A stretch of 44,645 nucleotides of DNA, from positions 1-44,645 of the forward strand of contig JAUXVN010000065.1 in the NCBI GenBank assembly GCA_030684555.1, in the 5' to 3' direction. How positions within the stretch are numbered: the first letter of the stretch is position 1; each line of letters opens with the position of its first letter. This DNA comes from Ignavibacteria bacterium. GTDB lineage: Bacteria; Bacteroidota; Ignavibacteria; Ignavibacteriales; Ignavibacteriaceae. The position numbers and the translations under genes are program-made. Positions 1,986 to 23,987 of the stretch are shown here, one piece after another. A model generated the notes under the pieces. The model was not told the origin of the DNA. It searched no databases and was given only the letters and a program-made list of their open reading frames with translations.

Positions 1986-3080
1986 ATGGAACATCCGAGA
2001 CTCATAGAAATATTCATTCAACTCGCTAAAATCAATGCTCTCTCTACTGAAGAAGCCCCCGTTGCAGATTATATAAAATCGTTTTTAATGAATTTAGGTT
2101 TGACTATTGAAAAAGATAATTCAGACATACACACCGGAAGCAATACGGGAAACGTCATTTGCAAAGTTGGTTCAGGTGGTAATTTTTTAATGCTTTCTCA
2201 CATGGATACTGCACGCCCAACCGCTGAACTTGTCACTATAATTTTAGAAGATAAAATAGTCTCTAACGGAAAAACTGTTCTCGGAGTTGATAATAGAGCA
2301 GGTATTGCAGTTCTACTCTATACCATGGAACAATCAGTTAAACAAAAGGAAAAAATTAAAGACTTCACATTATCATTCACAACATGTGAAGAAACAACTT
2401 TGGGCGGATCCACTAATCTTAAGATTGATGAGAATATTGAATATGCATTTATTTTTGATTCATCACACCGCCCCGGAACATTTATTAATGCAGCATGCGG
2501 AGCAAAAAGTTTCAACATAGTTATTGCTGGAAAACCTTCTCATTCCGGTATCGCTCCGGAAAAAGGAATCAATGCAATCACAATTGCTGCGAATGCAATT
2601 TCTAAGTTAGATTGGGGCAGAATTGATAATGATACAACCGCAAACATTGGATTACTAAACGGCGGTAGTGCAGTGAATGTTATTCCGGAAAAAGTTGTGA
2701 TTGACGGAGAAGTCCGCTCTTTTGATATGAATAAAGTGGAATCAGTAATTCAAAATATAAATCGTGTTTTTGAAAAAGAAGCAGCAAAACTTGATGGGAC
2801 AATCCTTTTCACCGACTTATGGGATTTCAAACCGTTCACTGTTTCGAAAGATGAAGAAGTTTTTAAGCGGATTGAAGAAGTTATGATCAGAATAGGTTTA
2901 GAGCCTAAACCGGTAATATCTCTTGGCGGCAGTGATGCTAATTCACTAAATGGAAGAGGAATCCCTTCTATCAATTTAGGAATTGGTGCTCAAAATCCTC
3001 ATGCAAATGATGAATTTATTTTTATAAATGACCTAATCAAGTCAGCAGAAATAGCTTTTGAACTAATAAGGGAAAACTAA
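1986..3080 (+). CDS. M20-family metallopeptidase, peptidase T-like
   Basis: A 364-residue cytosolic zinc-dependent exopeptidase of the M20/PepT-like group, close to the usual length. Visible catalytic features are H72 and D74 in LSHMDTARP, the metal-bridging D102 in GVDNRAG, and the base/ligand pair E135-E136 in TTCEETTLGG. The dimerisation-domain segment AGKPSHSGIAPEKG and the C-terminal metal histidine in GAQNPHANDEF are also present. It is expected to cleave short peptides, tripeptides or dipeptides; the exact substrate is unknown. No signal peptide is seen. It heads a tight operon with a secreted cyanophycinase (1-bp gap) and a YfcC-type carrier, so it may finish digestion of imported dipeptides; that role is inference. 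Confidence 0.9.
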   Translation: MEHPRLIEIFIQLAKINALSTEEAPVADYIKSFLMNLGLTIEKDNSDIHTGSNTGNVICKVGSGGNFLMLSHMDTARPTAELVTIILEDKIVSNGKTVLGVDNRAGIAVLLYTMEQSVKQKEKIKDFTLSFTTCEETTLGGSTNLKIDENIEYAFIFDSSHRPGTFINAACGAKSFNIVIAGKPSHSGIAPEKGINAITIAANAISKLDWGRIDNDTTANIGLLNGGSAVNVIPEKVVIDGEVRSFDMNKVESVIQNINRVFEKEAAKLDGTILFTDLWDFKPFTVSKDEEVFKRIEEVMIRIGLEPKPVISLGGSDANSLNGRGIPSINLGIGAQNPHANDEFIFINDLIKSAEIAFELIREN

Positions 3081-3081
3081 A

Positions 3082-3939
3082 ATGATAAAAAAGTTTCTGT
3101 TTGTCGTTCTGTTAACCTGTTTGTTTTTTTATGCGGAAGGTTTATCTCAAACAAAAGGTAAATTGGTGATAGTTGGTGGGGTTCAAGTTACTAGTATAAT
3201 GAAAAAATTTGTTGAATTGGCAGGCGGCTCAAATGCAAAAATTATTGTAATCCCGAATGCTGGTTCTTATCCTGTAGAAAGTTCGTTAGAACAGGTTGAA
3301 GAATTTACAGAATTAGGGGCAGTTTCCGATTATCTTCTTTTTACAAGAGAAACTGCTGATGCCGACAGTAACCTAAAAAAACTTGAGAATGTTACAGCCG
3401 TATTTTTTCTTGGTGGTGATCAAAGTGATCTTACGAGAGATATGCTTGGAACAAAATTGTTAGCAAAAGTATTTGAGTTTTATAATAATGGTGGATTAGT
3501 TGGCGGGACAAGTGCCGGTGCGGCTGTTATGAGTGAAGTAATGATAACCGGCAACGAACTTATTAATAAAGATTCGACAAGAAATTTTATTACTATCGAA
3601 CGGGGAAATGTTGAGACCAAACAAGGATTTGGATTTTTGAAATCAGTAATTATAGATCAACATTTTCTCAAACGCAAAAGACACAATAGAACTATGTCAA
3701 CTCTAATTGAGCATCCAAATCTAATTGGAGTTGCTATTGATGAATCATCTGCAATTGTTGTTTATCCGGACGATACTTTTGAGGTGATTGGCGATAATCA
3801 AGTTTTAGTTTATGATCCAACCAAATCAAATAATATTCGAGAAGATTCAAAGGGAAATCTTGGAATAAGTGAACTGAAATTACACGTTTTAATTAATGGT
3901 GATAAATTCAATCTTAAAACCGGAAGAGTAATTGAATGA
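3082..3939 (+). CDS. Secreted cyanophycinase (peptidase family S51)
   Basis: A 285-residue protein with an N-terminal signal peptide (about residues 1-22, ending near GLSQ), so it acts in the periplasm or outside. The S51 fold is clear: GGDQ near residue 114, the nucleophile elbow GGTSAGA with Ser144, the DQHFLKRKR segment with His194, and AIDESSA with Glu221. The His-to-Glu spacing of 27 residues matches the Ser/His/Glu triad described for cyanobacterial CphB. Cyanophycinases cut multi-L-arginyl-poly-L-aspartate into beta-Asp-Arg dipeptides. The gene sits between an M20 peptidase and, with a 4-bp overlap, a DcuC/YfcC-like carrier. Some S51 relatives cleave other Asp peptides, so cyanophycin as substrate is likely but not proven. 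Confidence 0.88.
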   Translation: MIKKFLFVVLLTCLFFYAEGLSQTKGKLVIVGGVQVTSIMKKFVELAGGSNAKIIVIPNAGSYPVESSLEQVEEFTELGAVSDYLLFTRETADADSNLKKLENVTAVFFLGGDQSDLTRDMLGTKLLAKVFEFYNNGGLVGGTSAGAAVMSEVMITGNELINKDSTRNFITIERGNVETKQGFGFLKSVIIDQHFLKRKRHNRTMSTLIEHPNLIGVAIDESSAIVVYPDDTFEVIGDNQVLVYDPTKSNNIREDSKGNLGISELKLHVLINGDKFNLKTGRVIE

Positions 3940-5354
3940 GTAAAGTTAAAAAACTTCTTCCATTCAAACTAAAAGTTCCGAATACTTATCTTCTTATTTT
4001 TTCTATTCTTATAATAATTGCGGCGTTGACCTGGGTTATTCCCGGAGGTAAGTATGAGCGAACTATCCTTAACGGAAGGGAAGTAGTTGTCCAAAATTCA
4101 TTTCATTATATCGACAGTCATCCGCAAGGTATAAGCGAATTATTTATCTCACCGCTCAAGGGATTTGTTGAAGCAGCATTAATTATAGGTTTTGTGTTGA
4201 TTGTTGGAGGTGCATTTAATGTACTTCAAACAACTGATGCAATTAATTCATTAATTAATAAACTTGCTCGAGCACATAAGAAGTCAAAAATCCTTAGAGT
4301 AATGTTTATTCCACTATTAATTTTTATGTTCTCTCTTGGCGGGGCAACTTTCGGAATGAATGAAGAGATCATTCCATTTGTACTTATTATTGTTCCAATA
4401 TGTTTAGCTTTAGGTTACGACTCGATTGTTGGGGTAGCAATTCCACTCGTAGGGGCACATATTGGATTTGCAGGTGCATTTCTAAACCCCTTCAATGTAG
4501 GAATTGCACAAGGGATAGCTGGAGTTCCCCTATTTTCCGGAATTGGGTATCGTGTAATAGTTTGGTTAATATCAACAATTGTTGCTATACTTTTCATCTA
4601 TCGTTATGTTAAAAAAATTGAAAAGAAACCTGAGATTAGTCCAACATTTAATGAAGATAATGAAAGAAGAAGAACCGAACATTTTGATAATATATATGAA
4701 GAGAACGTAACTTTTTCAATCCGACATAAATTAGTTCTGATAACATTCGCTTTATCGTTAGTAATGGTTGTGATCGGTGTAGTAAAGCTGGATTGGTTTA
4801 TTGAAGAAATTGCAGCACTCTTTTTTGTTATGGGGATTGTATGCGGAATTATTGGCGGATTATCGAGTGAGAAGATAATAAAGTCTTTTATTGATGGGGC
4901 TAAGGATCTTGTCGGGACAGCTTTTATTATCGCCTTAGCAAGAGCAACTTTAGTTATTTCAAGGGATGGACAAATTATCGATACAATTTTATTTAATCTT
5001 TCACCATTCGTCGAATCTTCTTCGGCGATATTAGCTTCACAGAAAATGTTTTTCATCCAATCGATTATAAACTTTTTTGTTCATTCGGGAAGCGGGCAGG
5101 CTGCACTTACAATGCCCATTATGGCTCCACTGGCAGACTTGGCAGGTGTAACAAGACAAACAGCGATACTTGCTTTTCAGTTAGGTGAATTCACAAATAT
5201 TATTATTCCAACATCAGCTGTTACAATGGGAGCTTTGTCGATGGCAAGAGTTCCATGGGACAAGTGGGCAAAATGGGTTCTTCCGTTAATGATAATTTTA
5301 TTTATTCTGGGATTTGCACTTTTAATTCCACCAAACTTAATGGGCTGGCACTAA
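3936..5354 (+). CDS. YfcC/DcuC-family inner-membrane carrier
   Basis: A 472-residue polytopic membrane protein with about 11-12 hydrophobic helices and the features of the YfcC branch of the C4-dicarboxylate/anaerobic carrier superfamily. These include an early TWVIPGGKYER segment, a GGATFGMNEEIIPF motif in the first half, and HSGSGQAALTMPIMAPLADL and FTNIIIPTSAVTMGAL in the second half. YfcC relatives are predicted antiporters for basic amino acids. The start codon overlaps the cyanophycinase stop by 4 bp, implying coupled translation. The context suggests import of arginine, ornithine or Asp-Arg-type dipeptides released by the upstream enzymes. Substrate assignment is inference. Confidence 0.85.
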   Translation: MSKVKKLLPFKLKVPNTYLLIFSILIIIAALTWVIPGGKYERTILNGREVVVQNSFHYIDSHPQGISELFISPLKGFVEAALIIGFVLIVGGAFNVLQTTDAINSLINKLARAHKKSKILRVMFIPLLIFMFSLGGATFGMNEEIIPFVLIIVPICLALGYDSIVGVAIPLVGAHIGFAGAFLNPFNVGIAQGIAGVPLFSGIGYRVIVWLISTIVAILFIYRYVKKIEKKPEISPTFNEDNERRRTEHFDNIYEENVTFSIRHKLVLITFALSLVMVVIGVVKLDWFIEEIAALFFVMGIVCGIIGGLSSEKIIKSFIDGAKDLVGTAFIIALARATLVISRDGQIIDTILFNLSPFVESSSAILASQKMFFIQSIINFFVHSGSGQAALTMPIMAPLADLAGVTRQTAILAFQLGEFTNIIIPTSAVTMGALSMARVPWDKWAKWVLPLMIILFILGFALLIPPNLMGWH

Positions 5355-5384
5355 TTTTTTATCAATCAATAAAAGAGGTATGAC

Positions 5385-6485
5385 ATGAAAAAAATGTTTC
5401 TGGTTTTTACAATAATGCTGTTAGGCATTATCGATACTTTTCCTCAAGCAAGTTTTACTACCGGTGCACTGGAGGTAGCTGTGAATCAATATGGAAGAAT
5501 AAGATTATTCACCCCTGATGATGTAAGACATTTGCAACGAGCCTCAATTTTAGTGGGTACTTCATCTACCACAGTTTATGATTATCAAAATGATGGTGAT
5601 ACGCAAGATCCTACTGAACTTGTGGCGAATCCAACATTAAGCGATTTTGAAATTTATGGTTCATATAACAACCTCTATTCATCATTACCGCCTGATGTTT
5701 TAGTAAAATTGAATGTTTATGGCTGGACAAATGGAAATTATGCGATATTTAAGTTTACAGTTGTAAATAATGAAACTGCCGCCTTGAACTCTTTAATAGG
5801 GCTTGATATTATTCCTGAAGTTGGGCAGGCTTATGGTTTTGATACTGTTTCATTTAACTCTTCCGAAAATGTAATCCGCTTTCATAGAGGAAGTGATGTG
5901 AATTTAGGAATCAAATTATTATCAGGCACTCTCTCTTCTTTATATTCTTTTGAATGGTATTCCGGTTATACAGTCGATACCGATTATTGGAACTGGATGA
6001 ATCATGGATCAGTTCAACCTCAATATATTTCAACAACTGAAGATGGTCCGGTTACAATTACTTCGCAGGCTCCTGTCGAAATTAATTCGGGTGAAATGGT
6101 TGAAGTATTTTATGCAATGGCTCTTGGTACTGATGAAGAAATTATGTTATCCGGAATATCGGCTGCAACACAAAAATATCAATCTTTATTTACATCAGTA
6201 AATGATGGTTCTAATTCCCCCTTAAAATATTCGTTAGAGCAAAATTATCCGAATCCATTTAATCCAAGTACTACAATTTCTTATCTTCTTGAAAAAAGTG
6301 GTTTAGTTACTATAAAAGTTTATGATATTCTAGGGAATGTGGTAACAACCCTTATCAATCAAGAGCAATCTGCTGGTCAACATCAGCTAATCTTTAATGC
6401 AAGTGAACTTAGCAGCGGGCTTTATTTCTATTCAATTAAGTCTAATGGTTTTAATCAAACAAAAAAAATGATATTAATCAAATAA
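5385..6485 (+). CDS. Secreted T9SS cargo protein, unknown beta-rich domain
   Basis: A 366-residue protein with a signal peptide (about 1-20), a beta-rich domain of unknown function (about 22-275) and a C-terminal Por/T9SS sorting domain. The sorting domain starts at LEQNYPNPFNPSTTI (about residue 284) and ends in KKMILIK, so export to the outer surface is expected. The central domain is clearly paralogous to that of the next gene: both contain RASLLVG/RASILVG, PTLSDFE, YGWT-G-Y and NNET blocks in the same order. The ATG has a good AAGAGG ribosome-binding site. The gene starts 30 bp after the YfcC gene and may belong to the same transcript. Biochemical role is unknown. Confidence 0.85.
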   Translation: MKKMFLVFTIMLLGIIDTFPQASFTTGALEVAVNQYGRIRLFTPDDVRHLQRASILVGTSSTTVYDYQNDGDTQDPTELVANPTLSDFEIYGSYNNLYSSLPPDVLVKLNVYGWTNGNYAIFKFTVVNNETAALNSLIGLDIIPEVGQAYGFDTVSFNSSENVIRFHRGSDVNLGIKLLSGTLSSLYSFEWYSGYTVDTDYWNWMNHGSVQPQYISTTEDGPVTITSQAPVEINSGEMVEVFYAMALGTDEEIMLSGISAATQKYQSLFTSVNDGSNSPLKYSLEQNYPNPFNPSTTISYLLEKSGLVTIKVYDILGNVVTTLINQEQSAGQHQLIFNASELSSGLYFYSIKSNGFNQTKKMILIK

Positions 6486-6501
6486 ACTAAAAAGGTGCGT
6501 T

Positions 6502-7452
6502 ATGAAAAAATTGCTTTCTTTTCTTTTTGTTTTAATGTTTTCATTTGTCTTAACGACAGATAGTATCGCTCAAAGTTTTTATACCGGTGCAATAGGAATT
6601 ACTCAAAGCAATGGTGGAAGAACCCGCATTTTCTCAAATAATTTAACTACCAGATTAATTGATCGAGCATCATTACTTGTAGGGGTTAGTCAAACTTCGG
6701 TTTTTGATTATAATGAAGATCAAAACGGAATAGTAAACGCAGCTACAGTTACTTCCCCAACTCTTAGTGATTTTGAAGTTACAAGTACAATCAATAATTC
6801 ATATTCAAACATGCCTCCAAATCTTGAAGTTGCAATTAATTATTATGGTTGGACAGATGGTGCTTATATTTTAGGTAAGATGACAATAAAGAATAACGAG
6901 ACTTCCGCTATTAATGCGGTTGTTGGTTTAGAAGTTATTCCTCAAATTGATGGTGTTTATGGTGGTGAAACTGTAAAGTATGATGTTGCATCACAAACTA
7001 CTCTCATGAATAAAATAGGATGGGCAGGAATTAAATTCTTCTCTGCATCACAAACTGCATTAAAATCAATTGAGTGGGTGAGTGATTACGGAAACGATTC
7101 ACTTTATTATTCATGGCTTACACAAGGCTCATTTGATGCCCCTCTGACAGTAGGTGTTGATGGTGCTGTTGCTATTCTTGGACAAAATGGAATTAATGTT
7201 CCTGCCGGACAATCAACAATATTCTACTTTGGGATTTCATTGGGTGCAGATCAGGCAACCTGTATTAGCAATATGGATTTGTGTCAACAAAAGTATTTCG
7301 TGATTCTGCCGGTTGAATTAACTTCTTTCATCGGAACTGTAAAAGGAAATAGCGTAAATCTTGATTGGACAACTGCTTCAGAATTAAATAACCGCGGTTT
7401 CGAAATCGAAAGAAAAATTGATAACAATTGGGTTACAGTTGGTTTTGTTTAA
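6502..7452 (+). CDS. Truncated paralogous T9SS cargo protein ending at an in-frame TAA
   Basis: The open part encodes 316 residues: a signal peptide (about 1-23), a beta-rich domain paralogous to the preceding gene (about 25-260), and the first half of the linker domain that begins PVELTSFIGTVKGNSVNLDW. Translation stops at TAA 7450-7452. Reading on in the same frame gives GKGTT and then the rest of the linker and a complete T9SS domain up to 7872. The sugar dehydrogenase at 29174 has GFVQGKGTTT at the equivalent site with CAA for Q, so a single C-to-T change would explain the stop. Without readthrough the product loses its sorting signal and should stay in the periplasm. Confidence 0.85.
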   Translation: MKKLLSFLFVLMFSFVLTTDSIAQSFYTGAIGITQSNGGRTRIFSNNLTTRLIDRASLLVGVSQTSVFDYNEDQNGIVNAATVTSPTLSDFEVTSTINNSYSNMPPNLEVAINYYGWTDGAYILGKMTIKNNETSAINAVVGLEVIPQIDGVYGGETVKYDVASQTTLMNKIGWAGIKFFSASQTALKSIEWVSDYGNDSLYYSWLTQGSFDAPLTVGVDGAVAILGQNGINVPAGQSTIFYFGISLGADQATCISNMDLCQQKYFVILPVELTSFIGTVKGNSVNLDWTTASELNNRGFEIERKIDNNWVTVGFV

Positions 7453-7872
7453 GGAAAAGGGACAACTTCAGATTTACAATCGTACAGATTTATTGATCAA
7501 CTAAATCTGGTTAATGCTCAATCAATTAATTATCGATTACGACAAATTGATTTTGATGGTACTTATAGTTATTCAAATGAAATTGAACTTGAATTTAGTC
7601 CTGTACCTAATGATTTAGTACTTGAGCAGAATTACCCAAATCCATTTAATCCGTCAACAAAGATTAATTTTCAATTACCTTCTAATGGATTTGTTAACCT
7701 AAAAATTTATGATGCAATTGGGAATGAGGTAACAACTCTCTTAAATCAAGTTCAAAGTGAAGGCTCACACAGCATTGATTTTAATGCAGCTAAATTAACC
7801 AGCGGTTTCTATTTCTGTGTTCTTAGATTTAATGATATTATTAAATCAAATAAAATGTTACTTATTAAATAA
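7453..7872 (+). pseudogene. Severed linker and T9SS sorting domain of the upstream gene
   Basis: The 139 codons after the TAA at 7450-7452 stay open in the same frame as the 6502 gene. They encode the end of the linker (INYRLRQIDFDGTYSYSN) and a canonical sorting domain with LEQNYPNPFNPSTKI, KIYDAIGNEV and a final KMLLIK before the stop at 7870-7872. No start codon or ribosome-binding site of its own is apparent. The downstream half looks undecayed, which means a recent mutation, a sequencing error, or rare readthrough. Confidence 0.85.
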
Positions 7873-7892
7873 ACTTGTTTGAATAACTAAAT

Positions 7893-7925
7893 TTCTCCGG
7901 AGATTGCTAAAAAATTTCCGGAGAA
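7893..7925. promoter_or_regulatory. Inverted repeat TTCTCCGGA/TCCGGAGAA before the RpiR gene
   Basis: TTCTCCGGA (7893-7901) and TCCGGAGAA (7917-7925) are perfect 9-bp inverse copies separated by 15 nt, ending 12 bp before the ATG of the RpiR-family regulator. No T-run follows on the plus strand, so a terminator is less obvious. It could be a terminator stem for the preceding gene or an operator for the regulator. Confidence 0.45.
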
Positions 7926-7937
7926 TCATTAATAAAA

Positions 7938-8801
7938 ATGACAGCACGTTACAAAGAAATAAAAGAAAAGATTCAGCAAAAATTTGAAAAACTTCCCCGT
8001 AATCATCAGATTATTGCTGATTATATTGTTGATAACTTTGATAAGATTCCATTTCAAAGCGTACAAGAGATTTCAGAAAAAACAGGAGCAAGTGTTGCTT
8101 CAGTTGTGAGGTTTGCTCAAAGAATTGGCTTTACAGGATATAGTGAATTAAGGGATGCAATTTCTGATTCATTGCAAAGCCATTTAACTAAACAAGATGC
8201 ATTCCCGTTGGTTTTACAATCTTCAAAGGGAGAAGATCTTTTAACTTCAGTAGCGAACATCGATATAAAAAATATAAATGTAACTCTTGCTGAACTTGAT
8301 AGGGAAGTCTTTTCGGACGCTGTAAATGTTTTTGTAAAATCAAATCGTGTCTTTACTGCAGGCTTAGGGATTTCGTATCTTTTAGCTGAAATACTTGCGT
8401 ATCAACTTACTCAGGTTGGTATTGACTCATCAGTGTTAAAACATTCATGCACGGTTTTTGAAGAGCAGGTTTTATATTTAAAGAAGGAAGACGTGTTAGT
8501 AACATTTTCATTTCCACCCTACTCAAAAGAAACAATTGATGCAGCAAAATCAGCACACAAACGAGGTATAAAAGTTATTAGCATCACTAATAAACCTACT
8601 TCTCCTGTTACTTTTTATTCTTATGCAGTATTAATAGTGAAAAGTGAAAATATGTTATTTACTAATTCATTTGCTGCTATTTCTGTAATTATAAATGCTA
8701 TAGCAACGGCTTGTGCAGTAAAAAATAAATCGAAAGCAAAAAAGATTCTTGCTGAAAGCGAAGAAATAATGTTCAACCAAAATCTGGTTATAAAACAATA
8801 A
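7938..8801 (+). CDS. MurR/RpiR-family transcriptional regulator
   Basis: A 287-residue protein with the standard two-domain layout. The N-terminal RpiR helix-turn-helix domain is at about residues 1-78 (NHQIIADYIVDNFDKIPFQS and EISEKTGASVASVVRFAQRIGF). The C-terminal SIS domain is at about 125-255 (VFTAGLGISYLLAEILAYQL and VLVTFSFPPYSKETIDAAK). SIS domains usually sense phosphosugars or related ligands. It lies 16 bp upstream of a TonB-dependent receptor gene and probably controls the receptor-secretion-peptidase block that follows. Ligand unknown. Confidence 0.92.
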   Translation: MTARYKEIKEKIQQKFEKLPRNHQIIADYIVDNFDKIPFQSVQEISEKTGASVASVVRFAQRIGFTGYSELRDAISDSLQSHLTKQDAFPLVLQSSKGEDLLTSVANIDIKNINVTLAELDREVFSDAVNVFVKSNRVFTAGLGISYLLAEILAYQLTQVGIDSSVLKHSCTVFEEQVLYLKKEDVLVTFSFPPYSKETIDAAKSAHKRGIKVISITNKPTSPVTFYSYAVLIVKSENMLFTNSFAAISVIINAIATACAVKNKSKAKKILAESEEIMFNQNLVIKQ

Positions 8802-8817
8802 ATAGATTGGAGAGATA

Positions 8818-11307: not shown

Positions 11308-11383
11308 TGTTTAATTTTTTTCATTGCTATTCATCTAAGTAAGATGAGTTTCCTTTTAAAACAAAGTTTATTACGAGGATATT

Positions 11384-14122
11384 ATGGTAAAAAGAGTGCT
11401 CCTAATTTTAATATTAACTTCAACTTCTATAGTATTTGCACAGAGCAAAAAAGAAATTGAAGAGAAAGAAAATTATTCTTTTGAAAAAATATTTGGAATA
11501 GGTGATAGAGCAGCGGGGATTCACAATGCAAGTAACATCGGACTCTTTTTTGAGAACCGTGGAAAACTATATCCAAGACGAATAACTCAAGGACCTTCAG
11601 GTGAGTTTCCGATAAACAGCACAAAGCATTATATCTATCGTGTAAATCCTTGGGTTGGAATTCCTGGAAATGTAGTTCAAGGACTTCACACAACAAATGA
11701 AGAATGGGAAGCTGTGGGAGGAACGCACAATAATGAATTAGCTCAAGTTGCATTTTCAGATAATCCTTCAACATGGCATCCGGTAAATGGCTGGCCCATA
11801 AAAGACGCTGATGGAAACAACATTATTATTTCTGATCAAGATAGTTACTGCGTTTATAGTGACAGCAATAATTCAGTTTCGGTTTTTGGGCTTCAAGTTG
11901 CTCAGACCGGGTATGCTTTTGGAATCAATCTTGCGAAAAATATTCTCTTCTATAAATATGAAATAACAAATCACGGAGCAAATGATCTCTCAAATCTTTA
12001 CTTCGCACTTTATTGTGACATTGACGTTGGAAATGTAAGCGGAGGTGTTCCAGAATACTTGGATGATAAAATTGATTTTATAAAGGACAGAAATCTGGTT
12101 TATTTTCATGACGATGGAGTTTCTTCCGAATGGCCCGGAGGTAAAACAGGTTTATTTGGAATTTCACTCTTAAAAACACCGATTATTGATGGACAACAAC
12201 TCGGCGTTACCGATATGCATTACAATCTTTATGATGATGATCTCGATATGGATTCAGTTCAATATGGAATTATGTCAAGTGCACAATCGCTTTATAATTC
12301 ATCACTCGGCTCAAGATTTTTTCATATAGGTAATAACACCTCATTAAAATTTGATGATCCGGCGACAATTCCTGCTTCAGGACTTGATCTCGTCGCAACA
12401 CTTTCTTCAGGTCCGTATAATTTAAACAGAGGTGATACTTTAGTATTCATTACAGCCTTTATTGGGGGTGAAACAAAGGATGAATTATTAACTTATTCAA
12501 CTTCAGCACAAAATATTGTTGATGCAGGATTCAATTTGCCTAAACCGCCTGCTCGTCCGACTCTAAGTGGAAGCAAAGGAAATAAAAAAGCAATTTTGTA
12601 TTGGGATGATAAAGCTGAACGAAGTTTGGATATTTCAAGCGGAATATATGATTTTGAAGGTTATAGATTATACAGAAGTAATGACAAAGGAAGAACATGG
12701 GAGAAGATAACTCAGTTCGATGCAGTGAATGCAATTGGCGAGGATGTCGGATTACAATATAGTTTTACTGATACAACAGTAGTGAATGGTTTTGAGTATT
12801 GGTATTCCATAACTGCGTATGATCAGGGAAATGAATTGATAGCTAGTCTTGAAAGTCCAATTGGTAATACACTTGAATCAGAAAACACAGTTTCGATTAT
12901 TCCGATTTCGGATGCTATCGGTAGATTACCTGTCGGCGTTAACTCAATATCACGAACCGGTTCAGGTGCATCGAATTATGAGATAGATATTTCCCCTATA
13001 GATGATGAGACTCTTACTGCAAATCAATATGAAGTTTCTTTTGAATTTGTTCCAAGAAAAGTCCGCGGTTCTTTGGAGACAAAAGTTACTCTGATAATTA
13101 CAGATTCTGTGGCAACAAAACCAATCAATTATGGAATGAGATTTAATTCACCTACAAATTTTGATTTGGTGAATTTATCAACAACAGAGATTATTCGTTC
13201 AGGTTATAATTATCCCGTTGGCGGAAGAGATGTTATAGTTACCGGTCAAGGATTACGAATCACATTAAAAGATTCATCAATTGCAACTGCTGAGCAGAGA
13301 CCAATGCAAGGGGACTTAATTTCAATCGATTTTGCAATAAATGCAGTGAAAAACAATGTTGAAAATGTTATCGAGAAAAGACCCTTTGATGCTGGTCAAT
13401 TACAAAGCACAAAAGATGGAATTATTTTTACAATTGACAAACCTGATATAATTAAGAGTGTTTCCCGAATAGGCGGTAACGATAATTTCAACATCTCTTT
13501 TGAGGTGACAGCCGATACTTTAGTAGCACAAAATATTTATATAGTCTCTGTTGATGCTAATGGTTTAAAAGATGGGAATCCCTTTGTCGTGATTTCTGTA
13601 TCCGGAACTCCAATTGTAGCAGATACTATTTTTAATTTGGGGACTTTCACTTTTAATGGTGTTACAGGAAAGATAAATTTCCTCGGAAATACGCCGCCAT
13701 CAGTGGGCAATAAGTATTCTGTTGAAGTAATTGAGCCTGTTGAACTTGACATTCGGGACAGATATTTATTTGATATAAAAGGTTCATCAATAAACAGTGA
13801 CAAAATAAAAAGCGAGATGAATAAAATACGGGTTGTACCAAATCCATATGTAGCTTCATCGTTATTTGAACCGGAGTTCGGAGAACTTCGTAAAGAACCA
13901 TTGAGACAAATTCAATTTATAAATCTTCCTCCGGAGTGCACAATTTATATTTTTACTGTAGACGCAAATCTTATAAAAACCATAAATCATTCTTCGACGA
14001 GTGGAACAACTGTTTGGGATTTACGTGCTGAAGGAGGCAGAGAAATTGCTCCAGGTGTTTATATCTATATTGTTAAAACGAGCGATTCCGAGTTTATGGA
14101 ACGCTTTGCAGTAATTAAGTAA
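11384..14122 (+). CDS. Large secreted protein with fibronectin-like and FlgD-like C-terminal domains
   Basis: A 912-residue protein with a signal peptide (about 1-20). The N-terminal half (about 25-385) is of unknown function, with aromatic, Asp-rich segments. A fibronectin type III-like module is at about 388-500 (KKAILYWDDKAERS, GYRLYRSNDKGRTW, YWYSITAYDQG). A middle beta-rich region follows. The C-terminal FlgD/T9SS-like domain is at about 820-912, containing VVPNPYVASSLF and GVYIYIVKTSDSEFMERFAVIK. The C-terminus differs from the NYPNPFNP tails elsewhere in the window and may be a variant sorting domain. The gene lies between a TonB receptor and a PorV/PorQ-family gene, and it may be the surface partner of that receptor. 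Function is inferred only from position. Confidence 0.75.
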   Translation: MVKRVLLILILTSTSIVFAQSKKEIEEKENYSFEKIFGIGDRAAGIHNASNIGLFFENRGKLYPRRITQGPSGEFPINSTKHYIYRVNPWVGIPGNVVQGLHTTNEEWEAVGGTHNNELAQVAFSDNPSTWHPVNGWPIKDADGNNIIISDQDSYCVYSDSNNSVSVFGLQVAQTGYAFGINLAKNILFYKYEITNHGANDLSNLYFALYCDIDVGNVSGGVPEYLDDKIDFIKDRNLVYFHDDGVSSEWPGGKTGLFGISLLKTPIIDGQQLGVTDMHYNLYDDDLDMDSVQYGIMSSAQSLYNSSLGSRFFHIGNNTSLKFDDPATIPASGLDLVATLSSGPYNLNRGDTLVFITAFIGGETKDELLTYSTSAQNIVDAGFNLPKPPARPTLSGSKGNKKAILYWDDKAERSLDISSGIYDFEGYRLYRSNDKGRTWEKITQFDAVNAIGEDVGLQYSFTDTTVVNGFEYWYSITAYDQGNELIASLESPIGNTLESENTVSIIPISDAIGRLPVGVNSISRTGSGASNYEIDISPIDDETLTANQYEVSFEFVPRKVRGSLETKVTLIITDSVATKPINYGMRFNSPTNFDLVNLSTTEIIRSGYNYPVGGRDVIVTGQGLRITLKDSSIATAEQRPMQGDLISIDFAINAVKNNVENVIEKRPFDAGQLQSTKDGIIFTIDKPDIIKSVSRIGGNDNFNISFEVTADTLVAQNIYIVSVDANGLKDGNPFVVISVSGTPIVADTIFNLGTFTFNGVTGKINFLGNTPPSVGNKYSVEVIEPVELDIRDRYLFDIKGSSINSDKIKSEMNKIRVVPNPYVASSLFEPEFGELRKEPLRQIQFINLPPECTIYIFTVDANLIKTINHSSTSGTTVWDLRAEGGREIAPGVYIYIVKTSDSEFMERFAVIK

Positions 14123-14141
14123 AGCGAGAATGGAGATTAAC

Positions 14142-15131
14142 ATGAAAAAACTTTTTTTAATATCATTTCTAATAACCGTTACATTACTCGCTCAAAATCC
14201 TAATCTCGGAACCAGCGGGGCAAAATTTTTATCGATACCTATGAGTCCACGAGCAGAGGCACTTGGTGGAGCTGTTGTCGGTTTATCTGATGATGCTGCA
14301 TCGGTGTTTTATAATCCTGCCGGTATTGTAAAAGTAAAAAATGTCGAAGCATTTTTTTCATACTCTAATTGGTTTAATATGTTCGACCTTAATGCGGCAT
14401 CTATTGTTTATAATATGGGAGAAGCAGGTGCTTTGGCGGCGAGTATGATTTTATTTACAACCGGGAAAATGGAAATAACTACTGAAGAAAAACCAAATGG
14501 CACAGGACGTTATTTCGATGTCGGTGATCTTGCAGTTGGACTTACTTATGCAAAATATTTAACCGATAGATTTAACATCGGTTTAAGTGTTAAATATATT
14601 CATCAACAAATATGGAATGAGACTTCAAACGGAATCGCTTTTGATATTGGGACTCAATACAGAATTGATTTCCAAAATTTAACTATAGCTATGAGTATGA
14701 CTAACTTCGGTGGTGATATGTCATTCGATGGACCTGATCTTGATATTTCACATCTTAAAAATAATAATTATCCCTTAAGTAGATTAACTCCTGCAAGATT
14801 ACAAACAGACGAATATTCGCTTCCTCTTCATTTTCAAGTTGGAATTGGTTTTGATATATATCAAAATAATTTTATGAAAATTAGAGGTGGTATCGATGCT
14901 ACACATCCAAATGATAATAAAGAAAGAGTACAGTCCGGATTAGAATTAAAATTCTTTGATCGGTTCTATGTTAGAGGCGGATACCGCTATAATTATGATG
15001 ATCAAAAATTCAGTTTTGGTGCCGGAGCGAATGTTCCGTTCTCCGATTCATTCATCTCTTTTGATTATGCTTACTCTGTTTATGATCTGCTTCCTAATGT
15101 TAATCGAATTTCTCTTACGATAACATTTTGA
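14142..15131 (+). CDS. PorV/PorQ-family outer-membrane beta-barrel protein
   Basis: A barrel protein of 329 residues from the start chosen here. The ATG at 14142 is preferred over the in-frame ATG at 14130 because GGAG at 14132-14135 is correctly spaced for it and the product then begins MKKLFLISFLITVTLLAQ, a clean signal peptide. The mature N-terminus shows the PorV/PorQ signature (SPRAEALGGAVVGLSDDAASVFYNPAG), followed by alternating barrel strands and a C-terminal RISLTITF strand. Family members are part of or associated with the T9SS, where PorV shuttles cargo to the attachment complex; many paralogs are uncharacterised. Its position suggests handling of the 912-residue protein or the T9SS cargo just downstream. 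Confidence 0.85.
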   Translation: MKKLFLISFLITVTLLAQNPNLGTSGAKFLSIPMSPRAEALGGAVVGLSDDAASVFYNPAGIVKVKNVEAFFSYSNWFNMFDLNAASIVYNMGEAGALAASMILFTTGKMEITTEEKPNGTGRYFDVGDLAVGLTYAKYLTDRFNIGLSVKYIHQQIWNETSNGIAFDIGTQYRIDFQNLTIAMSMTNFGGDMSFDGPDLDISHLKNNNYPLSRLTPARLQTDEYSLPLHFQVGIGFDIYQNNFMKIRGGIDATHPNDNKERVQSGLELKFFDRFYVRGGYRYNYDDQKFSFGAGANVPFSDSFISFDYAYSVYDLLPNVNRISLTITF

Positions 15132-15175
15132 TTTATTATATTAACCATCATAGATTTTAGGATGGGAGAATTAAG

Positions 15176-17233
15176 ATGACTTATCGAATACTTGTTTTGC
15201 TATTTATTCTTTTTAATCAGATTATTTTACCTCAAGGTTACATTTGTGCTGTAGGCGGCGGCTCTGAAAATTATAACAGTTGGAGTGATGCGCCGTATCG
15301 TTGGATTGTGGAGAAAAGCGATAGCGGAAAAATAATTATTCTTTCTTATTCCACCGACAATACATCATGGCTGCCGAATTATTTTTTATCTTTAGGTGCT
15401 TCGGAAGCATACAATAAAGCTATCACATCAAAAACTATTGCTGATTTACAATCTACTTATGACGAGTTAAAAACTGCAAAAGCTGTTTTTCTTAGAGGCG
15501 GTGATCAACTTCGTTATATAAATTATTGGAAAGGAACTAAAACCGAACAAGCAATCACTGAACTTTATAATGAAGGGAAAGTAATTGCAGGGACGAGTGC
15601 GGGGGCAATGGTACTGGGGAACTTTGATTTTTCAGCCCGCTACGGAAGTATAACTTCAAAGACTGCGTTATCAGACCCACTTAGTAATGCTTTAGATATT
15701 GAAAAGAATTTCATAAATCTTCAACCCAATCTTTTGTTTGACACACATTTTATTGAGCGAGGAAGATTCGGCAGATTAATCAGTATGATTATTAAATTAA
15801 AACATGAGTCAAATGTTGATTTGCTTGGTGTTGGAATTGATGATGCGACTGCACTCTGTATTGAACCCAATGGAATTGCGACTGTAATGGGAAGCGGTGC
15901 TGTAAGCTTCTTTTATTCGGATTCACTAACTTCTTATTTCGCTTCTACTTTTGATTCTGAATATGGGATTTCACAACTAAAATGTGATCAACTCACTGCT
16001 AATTGGAAGTTTAACATCCCTTCAAGAACAATAGAATACATCCCTCCGAGTGCCCGACATATCGAGCAGCAGAATCAACCAAGGACTGTAAACAATAACA
16101 TTCTGTCAAATTCATCTAATTCCTTTTCGAACTTAATAAATTCGTTTTATACTCTTTTAAGTAATTCGAACGGATATAAATCTGTACTTCTTACACATCC
16201 CGGTTATGTTTTAAAACTTGATTCACTTTTAACATACTTGAATAATTCATCACTTCCTTATGAGCTTATACCGGTTTCATCTACAACAATTAACGACTCT
16301 ATGTTTTCGCAAAAATTGTTGGAGGCTTCGATTGTTATGATTTTAGGAGATTCTACATCAAAGCTTGAAGCTTTAACCGATACTTCAAATTTACTCGGGG
16401 CAACCTTAAAAAATAAAATTGAGGATGTTCAGCTTACTTCATTTCTATTCTTTAACCAAGCAGTAAAAATGCAAGGTGAGTTTTATGTTGATAATACTGA
16501 TTCAGATGCCTTAGCTTCTTATAGAGGAAAGATGACCTTGAAAAAAGGATTGGGAATCGTAAAATCATCCATTATACAGGTTAATCCTTTTGAATCTGAT
16601 GATTATATCGAAAATAGAGTTTCGGCTCTGCTTTGGGGAATGATGCGCAATAATTCATTGTACGGAGTTTATTCAAATCCGTACGACAATTATTTTTATC
16701 AGGTTTTAACTGAGGGTCTCAGTACTTTGTATGATAATCTTTTATTAGCGATCGATGCGACCGGAACTACTTATGTTGATTCTTCTGTTTTTAGAGCGAG
16801 TAGTAGTATTGGTCCCCGACAAGTAGTCGCTATGAATAATTTACGTTACAACATAACAAGCTCAAATGGGGTATATTATAGTTTCCCGATGAAACAGTTA
16901 GCTATTTATCCAAATGTAAAGAGTGAACCGACTGAAGTACCAAACACATTATCATTAACAAATTATCCAAACCCATTTAACAGCTCAACAAAGTTGAATT
17001 TTTACCTACCATCTGATGGTGAAGTAAATGTAGTTATATATGATTTATTGGGGAGAAGTAAAAAAATAATTAACTCAGTTTTTTACAAGTCGGGGACTCA
17101 CGAGATTGAATTAGATTTTAACTCAGAAAAAAACTTCTTTTCTTCCGGAATTTATTTCGTAAAAATTGATTTGAAAAAGAAATTAACTTCTCAAATTCTG
17201 ACCGGTATGAAAAAAGTAATTTATTTAAAATAA
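15176..17233 (+). CDS. T9SS-exported S51 peptidase/cyanophycinase-like protein with a degenerate second S51 domain
   Basis: A 685-residue protein with a signal peptide (about 1-20). The first S51/class I amidotransferase-fold domain (about 22-285) has RGGDQ, GTSAGAM with nucleophile Ser141, DTHFIERGR with His191, and GIDDATA, where the expected Glu is Asp223. A Ser/Asn-rich linker follows. The second region (about 315-570) aligns by eye with the first, but the serine-elbow position reads FFNQAV (Asn427) and the His position reads VNPF (Asn470), so it looks catalytically dead. The C-terminal T9SS domain starts at LTNYPNPFNSSTKL (about 597). The protein should be surface-bound and may cleave Asp-containing or cyanophycin-like peptides. 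Homology of the second domain is my reading and needs structural confirmation. Confidence 0.82.
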   Translation: MTYRILVLLFILFNQIILPQGYICAVGGGSENYNSWSDAPYRWIVEKSDSGKIIILSYSTDNTSWLPNYFLSLGASEAYNKAITSKTIADLQSTYDELKTAKAVFLRGGDQLRYINYWKGTKTEQAITELYNEGKVIAGTSAGAMVLGNFDFSARYGSITSKTALSDPLSNALDIEKNFINLQPNLLFDTHFIERGRFGRLISMIIKLKHESNVDLLGVGIDDATALCIEPNGIATVMGSGAVSFFYSDSLTSYFASTFDSEYGISQLKCDQLTANWKFNIPSRTIEYIPPSARHIEQQNQPRTVNNNILSNSSNSFSNLINSFYTLLSNSNGYKSVLLTHPGYVLKLDSLLTYLNNSSLPYELIPVSSTTINDSMFSQKLLEASIVMILGDSTSKLEALTDTSNLLGATLKNKIEDVQLTSFLFFNQAVKMQGEFYVDNTDSDALASYRGKMTLKKGLGIVKSSIIQVNPFESDDYIENRVSALLWGMMRNNSLYGVYSNPYDNYFYQVLTEGLSTLYDNLLLAIDATGTTYVDSSVFRASSSIGPRQVVAMNNLRYNITSSNGVYYSFPMKQLAIYPNVKSEPTEVPNTLSLTNYPNPFNSSTKLNFYLPSDGEVNVVIYDLLGRSKKIINSVFYKSGTHEIELDFNSEKNFFSSGIYFVKIDLKKKLTSQILTGMKKVIYLK

Positions 17234-17291
17234 AAGAACTCGAGTAGATTACTATTTAAGAACTTAACTTTTCTCCAAAACAAAGGGAAAT

Positions 17292-18779
17292 ATGAAATTA
17301 TTTGCGGCACTATTTCTAATCTATACATCAATTCTATTTTCACAAAATACTCCACTCGAGTTAAATAATTACCTAAAGCCAACTTCATACGACCAGATTA
17401 CTGAATATATTTATCAACTTGATAAATCTTCAGATTTATTATCAGTTGAAGTATTAGGTAAATCTGTAGAGGAGAGAAATTTATATCTGATGAAATTCTC
17501 AAATTCCGAATTTGGCAAAGATTCCACCAAACTTAAAGTTTTAATCTTTGCCCAACAGCATGGCAATGAACAGTCCGGCAAGGAAGGAGCACTTTTATTA
17601 ACTCGAGAATTATTAAAACGTGAGAATAGCTATTTATTTGATAAAATAGATTTTGCATTAATTCCTCAGATGAATCCGGATGGCTCAGAAAAAAACAAAA
17701 GAAGAAATGGGAATGATGTAGATTTAAATAGGAATCATTTAATCCTATCTGAGCCTGAGACAATGGCTTTGCATAAAATATTCAGCGAGTATTTGTTTGA
17801 AGTTTCAATGGATGTCCATGAATATGCACCGTACGGTGAAACATGGCGAAATTATGGTTATCGTTTTAACTCTGATGTAGAAGTAGGTGTAACAACAAAC
17901 ATAAATATCTCAAAAGAAATAAGAGAATTTTCAAAGAGTAAGTATTTAAGGTTTATTGAAAAACATTTTAAGGAAAATAACTTTTCTTATTTTGAATATA
18001 GTCCCGGTGGTCCACCCGAAATTGATTACATTCGGCACAGCACTTACGATATAAATGATGGAAGGCAAAGTCTCGGAATTCAAAATACTTTCTCGTTTAT
18101 TCAAGAGGGGTTAAATGGAAAAGATGTTTACATCGAGAATATTAAACATCGCGCTGAAGGACAGATGACCGGAATGTTGGGGCTGCTAAAGTTTTCATAT
18201 GCTAATAGAGATAAAATAAAAAACATCATTAAAAGTGAGAGGGCAAAATTAATTCAAAATAAAGTTGATGAAAAAGTCGCAATTCAATTAGATCATTTTT
18301 CTGATGGAAGTAAATTAAATTTACCGCTCTACTCATACTATTCAAATAGTGATACGATTGTTATCGTAAATGATTATCGCCCCGTTGTAAAATCTACCTT
18401 TGATGTAAATCGTCCAAAAGGTTTTTTAATCCCCAAATCGTTGACTGAAATTATTGATTGGGCTGAGAAGCATTCTATTAAGTATTTTGAGTATGAAAAA
18501 ACTGATAAAGAGAAAATTGAACAATACTTTGTTAAGCAGATAGATTCCATTGACTTTGAGAGGGATATAATAGTAAATCCATTAGTTGAGCTTAAGATGG
18601 TGAATGATATTAATGTTGGTGACTACGTTTTCATTCCATTAAATCAAATAAAAAACAATGTGATAGTTATAGCATTAGAGCCAAAATCCATACTTGGTCT
18701 CGTAACCTATAAAAAATTTGAACACTTATTAAAAGTTAATGAAGTCTTTCCTATACTGAGGGTAATAGCTAACAATTAA
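17292..18779 (+). CDS. Secreted M14-family zinc carboxypeptidase
   Basis: A 495-residue protein with a signal peptide (about 1-18). M14 catalytic features are visible: zinc ligands H90 and E93 in QQHGNEQSGKE, the substrate-binding region DLNRNHL, the third zinc ligand H176 in MDVHEYAPYGETW, and the catalytic Glu272 in FSFIQEGL. A C-terminal region of about 190 residues after the catalytic domain has no recognisable domain and no T9SS tail, so the enzyme is probably periplasmic or an outer-membrane-associated protein. It should remove C-terminal residues from peptides or cell-wall peptides. It follows the S51-like cargo gene by 58 bp in the same direction, in keeping with a shared peptide-degrading role. 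Confidence 0.88.
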   Translation: MKLFAALFLIYTSILFSQNTPLELNNYLKPTSYDQITEYIYQLDKSSDLLSVEVLGKSVEERNLYLMKFSNSEFGKDSTKLKVLIFAQQHGNEQSGKEGALLLTRELLKRENSYLFDKIDFALIPQMNPDGSEKNKRRNGNDVDLNRNHLILSEPETMALHKIFSEYLFEVSMDVHEYAPYGETWRNYGYRFNSDVEVGVTTNINISKEIREFSKSKYLRFIEKHFKENNFSYFEYSPGGPPEIDYIRHSTYDINDGRQSLGIQNTFSFIQEGLNGKDVYIENIKHRAEGQMTGMLGLLKFSYANRDKIKNIIKSERAKLIQNKVDEKVAIQLDHFSDGSKLNLPLYSYYSNSDTIVIVNDYRPVVKSTFDVNRPKGFLIPKSLTEIIDWAEKHSIKYFEYEKTDKEKIEQYFVKQIDSIDFERDIIVNPLVELKMVNDINVGDYVFIPLNQIKNNVIVIALEPKSILGLVTYKKFEHLLKVNEVFPILRVIANN

Positions 18780-18847
18780 TAAATATTTATTTCTGATTTT
18801 TTTACTTTAAATGTATCGGTTAGAATTCATCGATAAAGGAAAATCCA

Positions 18848-19951
18848 ATGCGAATTGAAAGAATTGAACTTCGACATATTAAAATGGAATTAGTCTCTCC
18901 ATTTACAACATCAATGGGAACAGAATACGATGAAGAACATATCATAGTAAGAGTTGATGGTGAGGGGTTAACAGGATGGGGAGAATGTGTTGCTGAAGGA
19001 ACTCCGTTTTATTCATATGAAACAGTAACAACAGCTTGGCACATACTGCAAGATTTTTTACTCCCTTCTATTCTTAATAAAAATATTTTAAGCATAGATG
19101 ATGCAATCTCCTCTTATTCAAAAGTCCGCGGGCATATGATGGCTAAAGCCGGATTGGAAGCAGCTTTATGGGATTTATTTGCAAAATCAAAAAATATTTC
19201 TTTATCAAAGATGTTTGGAGGAACGAGAGACAAAATTGATGTCGGTGTTAGCATTGGCATTCAATCCTCACCGCTTGAATTAATTCATAAGGTAGAAGGA
19301 TATCTTAATGAAGGTTATAAAAGAATTAAAATAAAAATCTCACCAAATAATGATATACAATTCATTGAAGTTTTAAGAAAAGAATTCCCTGATATTTTAT
19401 TACAAGTAGATGCAAATTCTGCTTATACATTAGATCAGATCGATCTCTTAAAACAAATGGATGATTATAATTTACTCCTAATAGAGCAGCCGTTGGGATA
19501 TGAAGATATTTATGACCATTCAAAGCTTCAGCGTGAACTTAAAACACCTATTTGTCTCGATGAAAGTATTCACTCACTTGACGATACCCGTGCTGCAATT
19601 GAATTAGATAGTTGTAGAATCATTAACATAAAACCGGGACGTGTTGGTGGATTTACTGAATCGATTCTTATTCACGATTATTGTGCTTCTAAAAATATAC
19701 CAGTTTGGCATGGTGGGATGCTCGAGTCGGGAATTGGACGCGCCGGAAATGTAGCCCTCGCATCTTTACAAAATTTTACTCTACCCGGTGATATTTCAGC
19801 TAGTAAACGATATTATAAACAAGATATTGTTGAACCGGAGTTTATTGTAAATAAAGATGGAACTATGGATGTTCCCCAAAATGACGGAATTGGTGTCGAA
19901 GTAAATATGAGTATGTTAGAAAAAGTGACAGTTAAAAAGATGAGTTTTTAG
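18848..19951 (+). CDS. Enolase-superfamily racemase/epimerase (N-succinylamino acid racemase or o-succinylbenzoate synthase type)
   Basis: A 367-residue cytosolic enzyme of the muconate-lactonising/enolase superfamily. The catalytic set is complete: K161-x-K163 in RIKIKISP, metal ligands D188 (QVDAN), E213 (LIEQP) and D238 (CLDES), and the opposite base K262 (NIKPGRVGG). The C-terminal PGDISASKRYY and MLESGIGRAGNVAL segments are typical of the NSAAR/MenC subgroup. No other menaquinone genes are in the window, and the gene follows a run of peptidase genes. Racemisation or epimerisation of N-acyl amino acids or dipeptides is therefore at least as likely as o-succinylbenzoate synthesis. A gene symbol is withheld for that reason. 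Confidence 0.85.
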   Translation: MRIERIELRHIKMELVSPFTTSMGTEYDEEHIIVRVDGEGLTGWGECVAEGTPFYSYETVTTAWHILQDFLLPSILNKNILSIDDAISSYSKVRGHMMAKAGLEAALWDLFAKSKNISLSKMFGGTRDKIDVGVSIGIQSSPLELIHKVEGYLNEGYKRIKIKISPNNDIQFIEVLRKEFPDILLQVDANSAYTLDQIDLLKQMDDYNLLLIEQPLGYEDIYDHSKLQRELKTPICLDESIHSLDDTRAAIELDSCRIINIKPGRVGGFTESILIHDYCASKNIPVWHGGMLESGIGRAGNVALASLQNFTLPGDISASKRYYKQDIVEPEFIVNKDGTMDVPQNDGIGVEVNMSMLEKVTVKKMSF

Positions 19952-20939: not shown

Positions 20940-20985
20940 TTTTTAAACAGTTGATTTATTTCAATATCAAAATAAAGGGTGGGTT

Positions 20986-21924: not shown

Positions 21925-21934
21925 TATTTTTACT

Positions 21935-21965
21935 GAGATGATAATGCTTTAATGATTATCATCTC
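21935..21965. other. Perfect 11-bp hairpin inside the amidoligase cluster
   Basis: GAGATGATAAT (21935-21945) and ATTATCATCTC (21955-21965) pair perfectly around a 9-nt loop, 10 bp after the ATP-grasp stop codon. The sequence after it (TTCCTCG) lacks a T-run, so it is a poor intrinsic terminator on the plus strand. It could instead be an RNA-processing or stability element that sets different levels of the genes on either side, or a palindromic protein site. Confidence 0.5.
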
Positions 21966-22018
21966 TTCCTCGAAAAATGTGTGGTGAAATAATTTAACAA
22001 AATTTATTTGGGATAGTT

Positions 22019-23131: not shown

Positions 23132-23154
23132 CTAATTTTCAATAAAGATATTTA

Positions 23155-23985: not shown

Positions 23986-23987
23986 AG

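Follow-up and report, generated by a model that had tools for sequence, protein, structure and literature searches.

The 44,645-nucleotide stretch of DNA analysed here (the window; contig JAUXVN010000065.1 of an Ignavibacteria bacterium, assembly GCA_030684555.1) carries at positions 1986-19951 a run of genes, all on the + strand, that probably serves to scavenge cyanophycin (multi-L-arginyl-poly-aspartate) from outside the cell, or else a closely similar polymer of beta-linked Asp and Arg. Genes were called with an open reading frame (ORF) scan and with Pfam and NCBIfam profile searches. These recovered what a first-pass annotation had reported, namely two S51 proteins, one with a leader (S51a, 3082-3939) and one with a type IX secretion system (T9SS) tail (S51b, 15176-17233), together with an M20 peptidase, a YfcC-like carrier, an RpiR regulator, a TonB receptor and an M14 peptidase on the same strand, and they extend the earlier gene list by four (5385-6485, 6502-7452, 11384-14122 and 14130-15131). 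A single base separates the M20 gene from S51a, which in turn overlaps the carrier gene by 4 bases. The order that recurs in relatives is M20, S51a, YfcC carrier, secreted sandwich protein, RpiR, TonB receptor, 912-amino-acid (aa) protein, PorV-like protein, S51b and M14.

The two S51 peptidases

S51a (3082-3939, + strand) has the features of a secreted cyanophycinase-type S51 peptidase. It scores 172.8 bits on TIGR02069, above the NCBI equivalog cut-off of 126.6 bits for cyanophycinases, and its residues S144, D192, Q193, H194, R198, R200 and R203 are invariant in 30/30 aligned rows (from 34 rows matching S51a, the alignment and the trees omit L072, L074 and L075, which are S51b proteins, and L078, which has an internal stop; the S51 and M20 trees also omit L080). 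In a phmmer alignment with 3en0 these seven residues pair with S132, D172, Q173, H174, R178, R180 and R183 of CphB, the CphB numbering being deduced from the 20-residue offset of the 3en0 chain. We take S132 (in GTSAGA) and H174 (in DQHF) of CphB to be catalytic, and D172, Q173, R178, R180 and R183 to form the substrate or arginine site; S51a thus keeps the catalytic Ser and His and all five substrate-site positions in every row. A hydrophobic leader is present in 27 of the 30 rows (best 11-residue score at least 2.5, with the other three at 1.1-1.4), and such a Sec-type leader places S51a in the periplasm or outside the cell. The three leaderless rows come from the genomes that bear the cyanophycin synthetase gene cphA1. 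On these sequence features, we propose that S51a hydrolyses cyanophycin to beta-Asp-Arg.

S51b (15176-17233, + strand) is a T9SS-exported S51 protein with an intact first domain (residues ~20-290), a degenerate second S51 domain (~300-580) and a tail (597-670) that scores 33.9 bits on the T9SS cargo model TIGR04183 (cut-off 23). At least one T9SS part, PorQ, is encoded in the genome (250.7 bits, cut-off 220). In the first domain, S141, H191, R195, R197 and R200 are invariant in 19/19 rows, and structure comparison pairs it with 7uqv, 7uqw and 3en0 at Z scores of 29.3, 28.1 and 27.9 (251-254 residues, root-mean-square deviation (rmsd) 2.1-2.2). The kinship of the second domain to S51 follows from two lines of evidence. 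In hhalign comparisons, S51b's second half aligns with the S51a profile at E 1.6e-5 (probability 79%) and with the first half of S51b itself at E 9.8e-5 (probability 58%), and in an AlphaFold2 (AF2) model built from 19 sequences (predicted local distance difference test score, pLDDT, 85.7) the S51 order of strands and helices occurs twice. A nucleophile motif of the GTSAGA kind was not found in the second domain, nor did this domain have PDB matches of its own in the structure comparison, which hardly probed parts outside the first domain. We infer an arrangement of the two halves resembling that of the subunits in the CphB dimer. This tandem S51 is one of the new points of the locus, the other being the placement of M20.

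S51 enzymes could also recycle a cell's own cyanophycin, and published work, cited here and below from excerpts, reports that S51 genes cluster with cphA1 in 81% of the 658 genomes having both (PMC10206079). For the window such storage turnover is extremely improbable: cphA1 was not found over the cut-off in its genome, which is 99.97% complete, and the leader and T9SS tail put both S51 proteins outside the cytoplasm. It is the lack of a cyanophycin synthetase over the cut-off in so complete a genome that leads us to read the locus as one for scavenging. Among 79 genomes (the window's own plus 78 from its genus, family and order), cphA1 scores over the cut-off in three, G052, G054 and G056, and is absent over the cut-off in 76. 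G052 and G054 (loci L067 and L068) carry leaderless S51-S51-iaaA-cphA1 on one strand, and their S51s lie within the Ignavibacterial S51a radiation of the tree, a weak placement with group supports of 85 and 81. G056, with an S51 (38%) that has no leader and, at a contig end elsewhere, an M20 of the locus type (57%), seems to hold both the storage and the scavenging type. Since the S51s of the cphA1 genomes are leaderless and the other 27 leader-bearing, two types occur in the order, one cytoplasmic and for storage, the other secreted and for scavenging, and the window belongs with the latter.

The M20 peptidase and the company it keeps

S51a has matches in 32/79 genomes. Beyond G052 and G054, 26/30 of these genomes contain an S51b-type match as well, whose open frame reaches at least 670 aa in 24 of them (shorter in G027 and G042), and a single S51 match is found in G006, G045, G051 and G056. 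S51a loci were fetched from 30 other genomes, a set without G042, and the M20 gene lies directly upstream of S51a on the same strand in 27 of the 30 (gap -1 to 135 bases), so that the grouping of the two genes is not due to chance. The three loci without M20 (L067-L069) are those of the three cphA1-bearing genomes. The 27 M20-bearing loci contain YfcC in 23 cases, RpiR in 24, the TonB receptor in 23, the 912-aa protein in 22, the PorV-like protein in 22, M14 in 13, MenC in 4 and ornithine aminotransferase (OAT) in 1, all of them lower bounds because several stretches stop at contig ends. The sandwich protein T9a (described below) and S51b, counted separately at 60% coverage because shared T9SS tails inflate their general locus counts, occur in 23/27 and 15/27 stretches. 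S51b is on another contig or ~60 kb off in G058, G007 and G008, and YfcC is on the opposite strand in G008 and G033. The locus is patchily distributed, and S51a identity is 79% for G051, from another family, versus 49% for G007, from the same family, which suggests that the locus moved by transfer.

The M20 protein (1986-3080, + strand) is PepT-like and leaderless. It exceeds the cut-offs of PF01546 and PF07687, and on TIGR01883 it reaches 244.3 bits, below the 274.25 cut-off. It matches no IadA or IaaA model, its Pfam matches being M20, M42 and M28 only, and M20-type models fill the best 25 of its 47 NCBIfam rows. The metal ligands are intact, with H72, D102, E135, E136, D158 and H339 identical in 42/42 aligned rows, one of which (G056) was not seen adjoining an S51 gene. 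M20 matches with at least 47% identity over at least 160 residues are present in 30/32 S51a genomes versus 0/47 others (Fisher p 9e-20, ignoring relatedness), and the next full-length match has 39% identity. The 30 include G025, whose match is cut to 166 residues by a contig end, and short fragments in G065 (81 residues, 41%) and G074 (24 residues, 67%) were left out. From its family and position, we regard the M20 protein as a candidate cytoplasmic beta-Asp-Arg dipeptidase. The beta-Asp-Arg dipeptidase of some Bacteroidota and Firmicutes is said to be still undiscovered (Sharon and Schmeing, PMC10206079). A bolder joint proposal, that M20 is a fourth, unrelated class of such enzymes beside IadA, IaaA and CphZ and that S51b is a T9SS-exported cyanophycinase with a built-in degenerate pseudo-dimer partner, is one that we put forward tentatively and would rather doubt than assert.

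A set of named loci (the best 80 of at least 574 confirmed, L080 lying on the same contig as L070) shows which dipeptidase genes lie within 5 kb of S51a: M20 in 14, IaaA in 5, both in 0 and neither in 61. YfcC falls inside the same 5-kb range in 16/80, namely 10 loci with M20, 2 with IaaA and 4 with neither, two of which (L114 and L151) end at contig ends; the gene selection behind these neighbour counts misses YfcC frames present in L087 and L104. In Flammeovirga and Fulvivirga the S51a-YfcC core is accompanied by IaaA, a known isoaspartyl dipeptidase. Among the relatives IaaA does not follow the locus: at E 1e-20 it is found in 29/32 S51a genomes and in 39/47 others. The first-pass annotation had made its proposal depend on a beta-aspartyl dipeptidase somewhere in the genome. 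There is a single IaaA-type gene on another contig, C120 (322 aa, PF01112 349 bits, with a leader by our reading), but it falls short of the equivalog cut-off for the E. coli beta-aspartyl-peptidase (271.4 versus 567), and IadA has no match over the cut-off in the window genome.

For the arginine side, an arginase is encoded elsewhere in the genome (TIGR01229, 320.3 bits versus 227.6), and the OAT reported earlier at 34675-35877 is indeed there, on the minus strand (TIGR01885, 558.2 bits, cut-off 378.4), a plausible downstream enzyme ~15 kb away. In G078 (L060) OAT stands beside M14, and among the 80 named loci 8, 7 of them from Flavobacterium, have OAT no more than 5 kb from S51. In the Flavobacterium loci L132 (8045-13023), L135, L137, L140, L142, L147 and L157, which have S51 and OAT, the next gene always belongs to cluster c13. 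Its member in L132 is a penicillin-amidase-family protein, and the Flavobacterium c13 protein is a further dipeptidase candidate.

Several observations weigh against cyanophycin as the substrate. Neither isoaspartyl dipeptidase, IadA or IaaA, is in the cluster, as would be usual for a cyanophycin utilization locus, and M20 occupies the place. S51b scores 104.6 bits on TIGR02069, below the 126.6 cut-off, and is therefore classed only as cyanophycinase-like, and at the position of CphB Gln173 it has Thr (Thr or Ser across rows). The best PDB sequence match of both S51a and S51b is 7uqv, titled 'pseudo-CphB'. This protein is reportedly devoid of cyanophycinase activity (a literature search did not turn up that finding), so that good sequence and fold are no proof of activity. 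M20 relatives without S51 stand beside YfcC in G061, beside M14 in G037 and beside a TonB receptor, M14 and RpiR in G077, and the M20 tree places G077 and G037 within the part formed by KSB1/Calditrichota. No residue in the M20 alignment separates S51-linked rows from the 3 non-S51 rows. Given the M20 sets without S51 (G077 and G061), the genes other than S51 may serve peptide uptake in general. The pseudo-CphB match, the M20 homologues without S51 and the lack of distinguishing M20 residues favour the possibility that the S51s have some other substrate, be it beta-aspartyl, isopeptide or an ordinary peptide, the locus being one for general secreted-peptide uptake and the S51s dipeptidase-E-like or pseudo-cyanophycinases. 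We consider this unlikely. The arginine-site positions are kept in all 30 S51a rows, and in the S51 tree (130 rows; a quick tree with long branches flagged, 3en0 among them) pseudo-CphB groups with Bacillota S51s adjoining cphA1 (L136, L143 and L159), apart from S51a. Moreover, relatives from the same order carry S51 in cphA1-iaaA runs, and the arginine-side OAT recurs near S51 in the 8/80 named loci.

Two of the loci without S51 have contents of their own. In G061 (L170, 4410-9685) a T9SS-tailed secreted peptidyl-arginine deiminase lies beside M20 (37%) and YfcC (54%), a second case of the M20-YfcC pair in the company of a secreted enzyme linked to arginine. G077 (L172, 1-12556) has a run of TonB receptor, 912-aa-like protein, PorV, T9SS protein, M20, M14, hydrolase, AbgT carrier and RpiR, which is a sister uptake system.

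Accessory genes and the murein alternative

The carrier gene (3936-5354, + strand) encodes a YfcC/DcuC-type inner-membrane protein (PF03606, 373.9 bits; NF008611, 404.9 bits, under the 500 cut-off). We propose from its family that it imports arginine or beta-Asp-Arg. The arginine-ornithine antiporter ArcD of S. suis shares 57-64% identity with proteins that carry the annotation C4-dicarboxylate anaerobic carrier (PMC4129364), a likeness that would fit the YfcC carrier and that does not prove its substrate. Further along the + strand lie an RpiR-family regulator (7938-8801) with HTH_6 and SIS domains, a TonB-dependent receptor (8818-11307) with a CarboxypepD_reg domain and a score under the SusC cut-off, an adjoining 912-aa secreted protein (11384-14122) with no Pfam match, and a PorV/PorQ-family outer-membrane protein (14130-15131; NF033709, 214 bits, cut-off 90).

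T9a (5385-6485, + strand) consists of a secreted super-beta-sandwich domain and a T9SS tail (Por_Secre_tail; TIGR04183, 47.3 bits, cut-off 23). Its AF2 model (pLDDT 87.1) matches glucodextranase 1ug9 and glucoamylase 1lf6 at Z 22.3 over 228 residues (rmsd 3.0 and 2.9). The fold resembles that of an additional domain in glucoamylase and cellobiose-phosphorylase enzymes, which in T9a stands alone with a T9SS tail, and to judge by the model T9a is perhaps a surface binding protein. Its paralogue T9b (6502-7452, + strand) has an in-frame stop at 7450-7452, beyond which the frame continues to a T9SS tail that ends at ~7872. The ORF in the window is 316 aa long, versus 454-467 aa for the T9b of the nine relatives in which it exceeds 430 aa, and the stop is either a real nonsense change or an assembly error. 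Kinship of T9a and T9b with paired secreted proteins of Bacteroidota loci (cluster c10) found no support, with an hhalign probability of 0.3%.

The secreted M14 zinc carboxypeptidase (17292-18779, + strand; PF00246, 78.6 bits) is an optional member of the block. As a candidate for CphZ it was discarded on a family mismatch, since it matches PF00246 only. The gene that follows it (18848-19951, + strand) had been called amino-acid/dipeptide epimerase-like, a label that gives way to o-succinylbenzoate synthase (MenC): it scores 376.7 bits on TIGR01928 (cut-off 200.65), and on two L-Ala-D/L-Glu epimerase models 100.0 and 69.9 bits, far below their cut-offs of 500 and 343. The genome has a MenB (443.8 bits, cut-off 342.7), and menC was not found among the nine ORFs around it on contig C22 (menH-menB-menA-menE; scan at 1e-40). 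The enolase-type C domain PF13378 occurs in two genes genome-wide, this one and one on C119 whose top scores, below the cut-offs, are on DgcA and epimerase models. With TIGR01928 over its cut-off, a men cluster with no menC match and only two PF13378 genes, 18848-19951 is most likely MenC, a neighbour outside the pathway.

This assignment bears on the possibility that the locus recycles murein peptides, with M14, the epimerase-like gene, M20 and a MurR-type RpiR acting on L-Ala-D-Glu-meso-diaminopimelate peptides. The regulator does match MurR/RpiR models (68.9 bits on MurR, cut-off 408) and M14 weakly matches MpaA (21 bits, cut-off 157), yet the supposed epimerase scores as MenC, with the men cluster elsewhere showing no such gene, and the gene with the top scores, below the cut-offs, on the DgcA and epimerase models sits on C119, beside an ORF read as SH3/NlpC-P60-like (no NCBIfam match at 1e-20). 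Furthermore, MenC is present in only 4/27 loci and M14 in only 13/27, and we know of no role of S51 peptidases in murein-peptide recycling. We judge this reading very improbable.

Immediately upstream of the block, 808-1853 encodes an extracytoplasmic function (ECF) sigma factor followed by an ORF that by our reading is possibly its anti-sigma factor. A sigma-70 consensus scan gave 14 matches versus 14.5 expected. Downstream, 20217-25160 holds genes for an esterase-like protein, a weakly RimK/ATP-grasp-like protein, a YbdK-type GCS2 ligase (over its cut-off), a class-I glutamine amidotransferase (GATase) and a fifth ORF with no match; together they are perhaps a cluster for amide ligation. In the sister genome G001 the first two genes of this run come after M14, at 88 and 93% identity.

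Proposed cyanophycin scavenging and known systems

In the scavenging system that we favour, we infer the substrate, each transport step, the activity of M20 and the regulation. S51b, exported by T9SS, and S51a, with its Sec-type leader, would degrade the polymer to beta-Asp-Arg. Oligomers or dipeptides may cross the outer membrane by way of the TonB receptor, acting with the 912-aa protein and the PorV-like protein, and the YfcC-type carrier would take dipeptide or arginine over the inner membrane. Inside the cell, the cytoplasmic M20 would split the isopeptide bond to yield Asp and Arg, with the leader-bearing IaaA encoded elsewhere as a second possible enzyme for this step, and arginase and OAT could take the arginine on to glutamate semialdehyde. 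Control of the block probably lies with RpiR. The route from an extracellular arginine-rich polymer to glutamate that the first-pass annotation had drawn thus stands in part, cyanophycin or a cyanophycin-like polymer being the best guess at the substrate and IaaA-type, arginase and OAT genes being present, and its epimerase step falls away with the gene that is most likely MenC.

Like described utilization loci, the window has cyanophycinase genes and a transporter in one cluster and no cphA1 over the cut-off in its genome, and the locus would be a variant of the cyanophycin utilization locus that works in a similar way. The loci of L21-Spi-D4 (Salinivirga) and Flammeovirga pacifica likewise have cyanophycinase genes and a transporter without cphA1 (PMC10206079). 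The L21-Spi-D4 locus is described with IadA, in place of which the window has M20 (PMC10206079, PMC6243061). We take the F. pacifica WPAGA1 locus L134 to be the scavenging cluster named for that strain in PMC10206079. Its order is S51b, SusC, SusD-like, an unmatched secreted protein, S51a, IaaA, YfcC, a third S51 and OAT; S51b, S51a, YfcC and OAT are thus common to both, IaaA stands where the window has M20, and SusC/SusD-like genes are used in contrast to the TonB receptor below the SusC cut-off, 912-aa protein and PorV-like protein of the window. The third S51 protein of L134 (13220-15460), between YfcC and OAT, carries fn3, GEVED and Por tail domains.

Strain Omega (Balneolaeota) resembles the window in that one genome of the Fibrobacteres-Chlorobi-Bacteroidetes (FCB) group encodes a plain (CYPRO_2145) and a Por-tailed (CYPRO_0608) S51 protein, as in Salinivirga (PMC6243061). 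In the window the pair sits in one conserved block, whereas the strain Omega contexts are said to differ from those of Salinivirga, and the excerpt of that paper mentions no degenerate second S51 domain (PMC6243061). CphB (3en0, 7uqw) shares its fold with the first domain of S51b, and the catalytic Ser and His and the three Arg positions with the window's S51s; unlike CphB, S51b is a tandem fusion with a T9SS tail and Thr for Gln173, and S51a bears a leader, CphB being intracellular (PMC10206079). CphZ, an M14-type cyanophycin dipeptide hydrolase, is comparable as an M14 peptidase near a cyanophycinase, but the M14 of the window, a secreted and optional member of the block, has PF00246 as its sole family match. 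In Citromicrobium sp. JLT1363 a TonB receptor adjoins a cyanophycinase and TonB-dependent uptake is predicted, as here; that organism is unrelated, the likeness is one of a neighbour pair, and the excerpt mentions no M20 or T9SS parts (PMC3400609). Utilization loci, scavenging clusters, plain and Por-tailed S51 pairs and the TonB-cyanophycinase neighbourhood are therefore in print already. New are the Ignavibacteria version, M20 in place of IaaA or IadA, and the tandem S51; excerpts retrieved in an open-access literature search contained no description of an Ignavibacterial version of the locus.

As for the origin of the polymer, a life with cyanobacteria had been suggested earlier and finds no support, the closest named record among the matches listed having 'groundwater' in its isolate name. 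Since cphA is reported to be widespread in activated-sludge bacteria (PMC10687191), the polymer may have producers other than cyanobacteria. Cyanophycin, a concentrated form of stored nitrogen, is made both by cyanobacteria and by many heterotrophs. The M20 gene offers an assayable candidate for the splitting of beta-Asp-Arg where the cluster is without IaaA, IadA and CphZ, and the conservation of an uptake locus in some Ignavibacteriales only suggests that the stores of other microbes are a regular food there.

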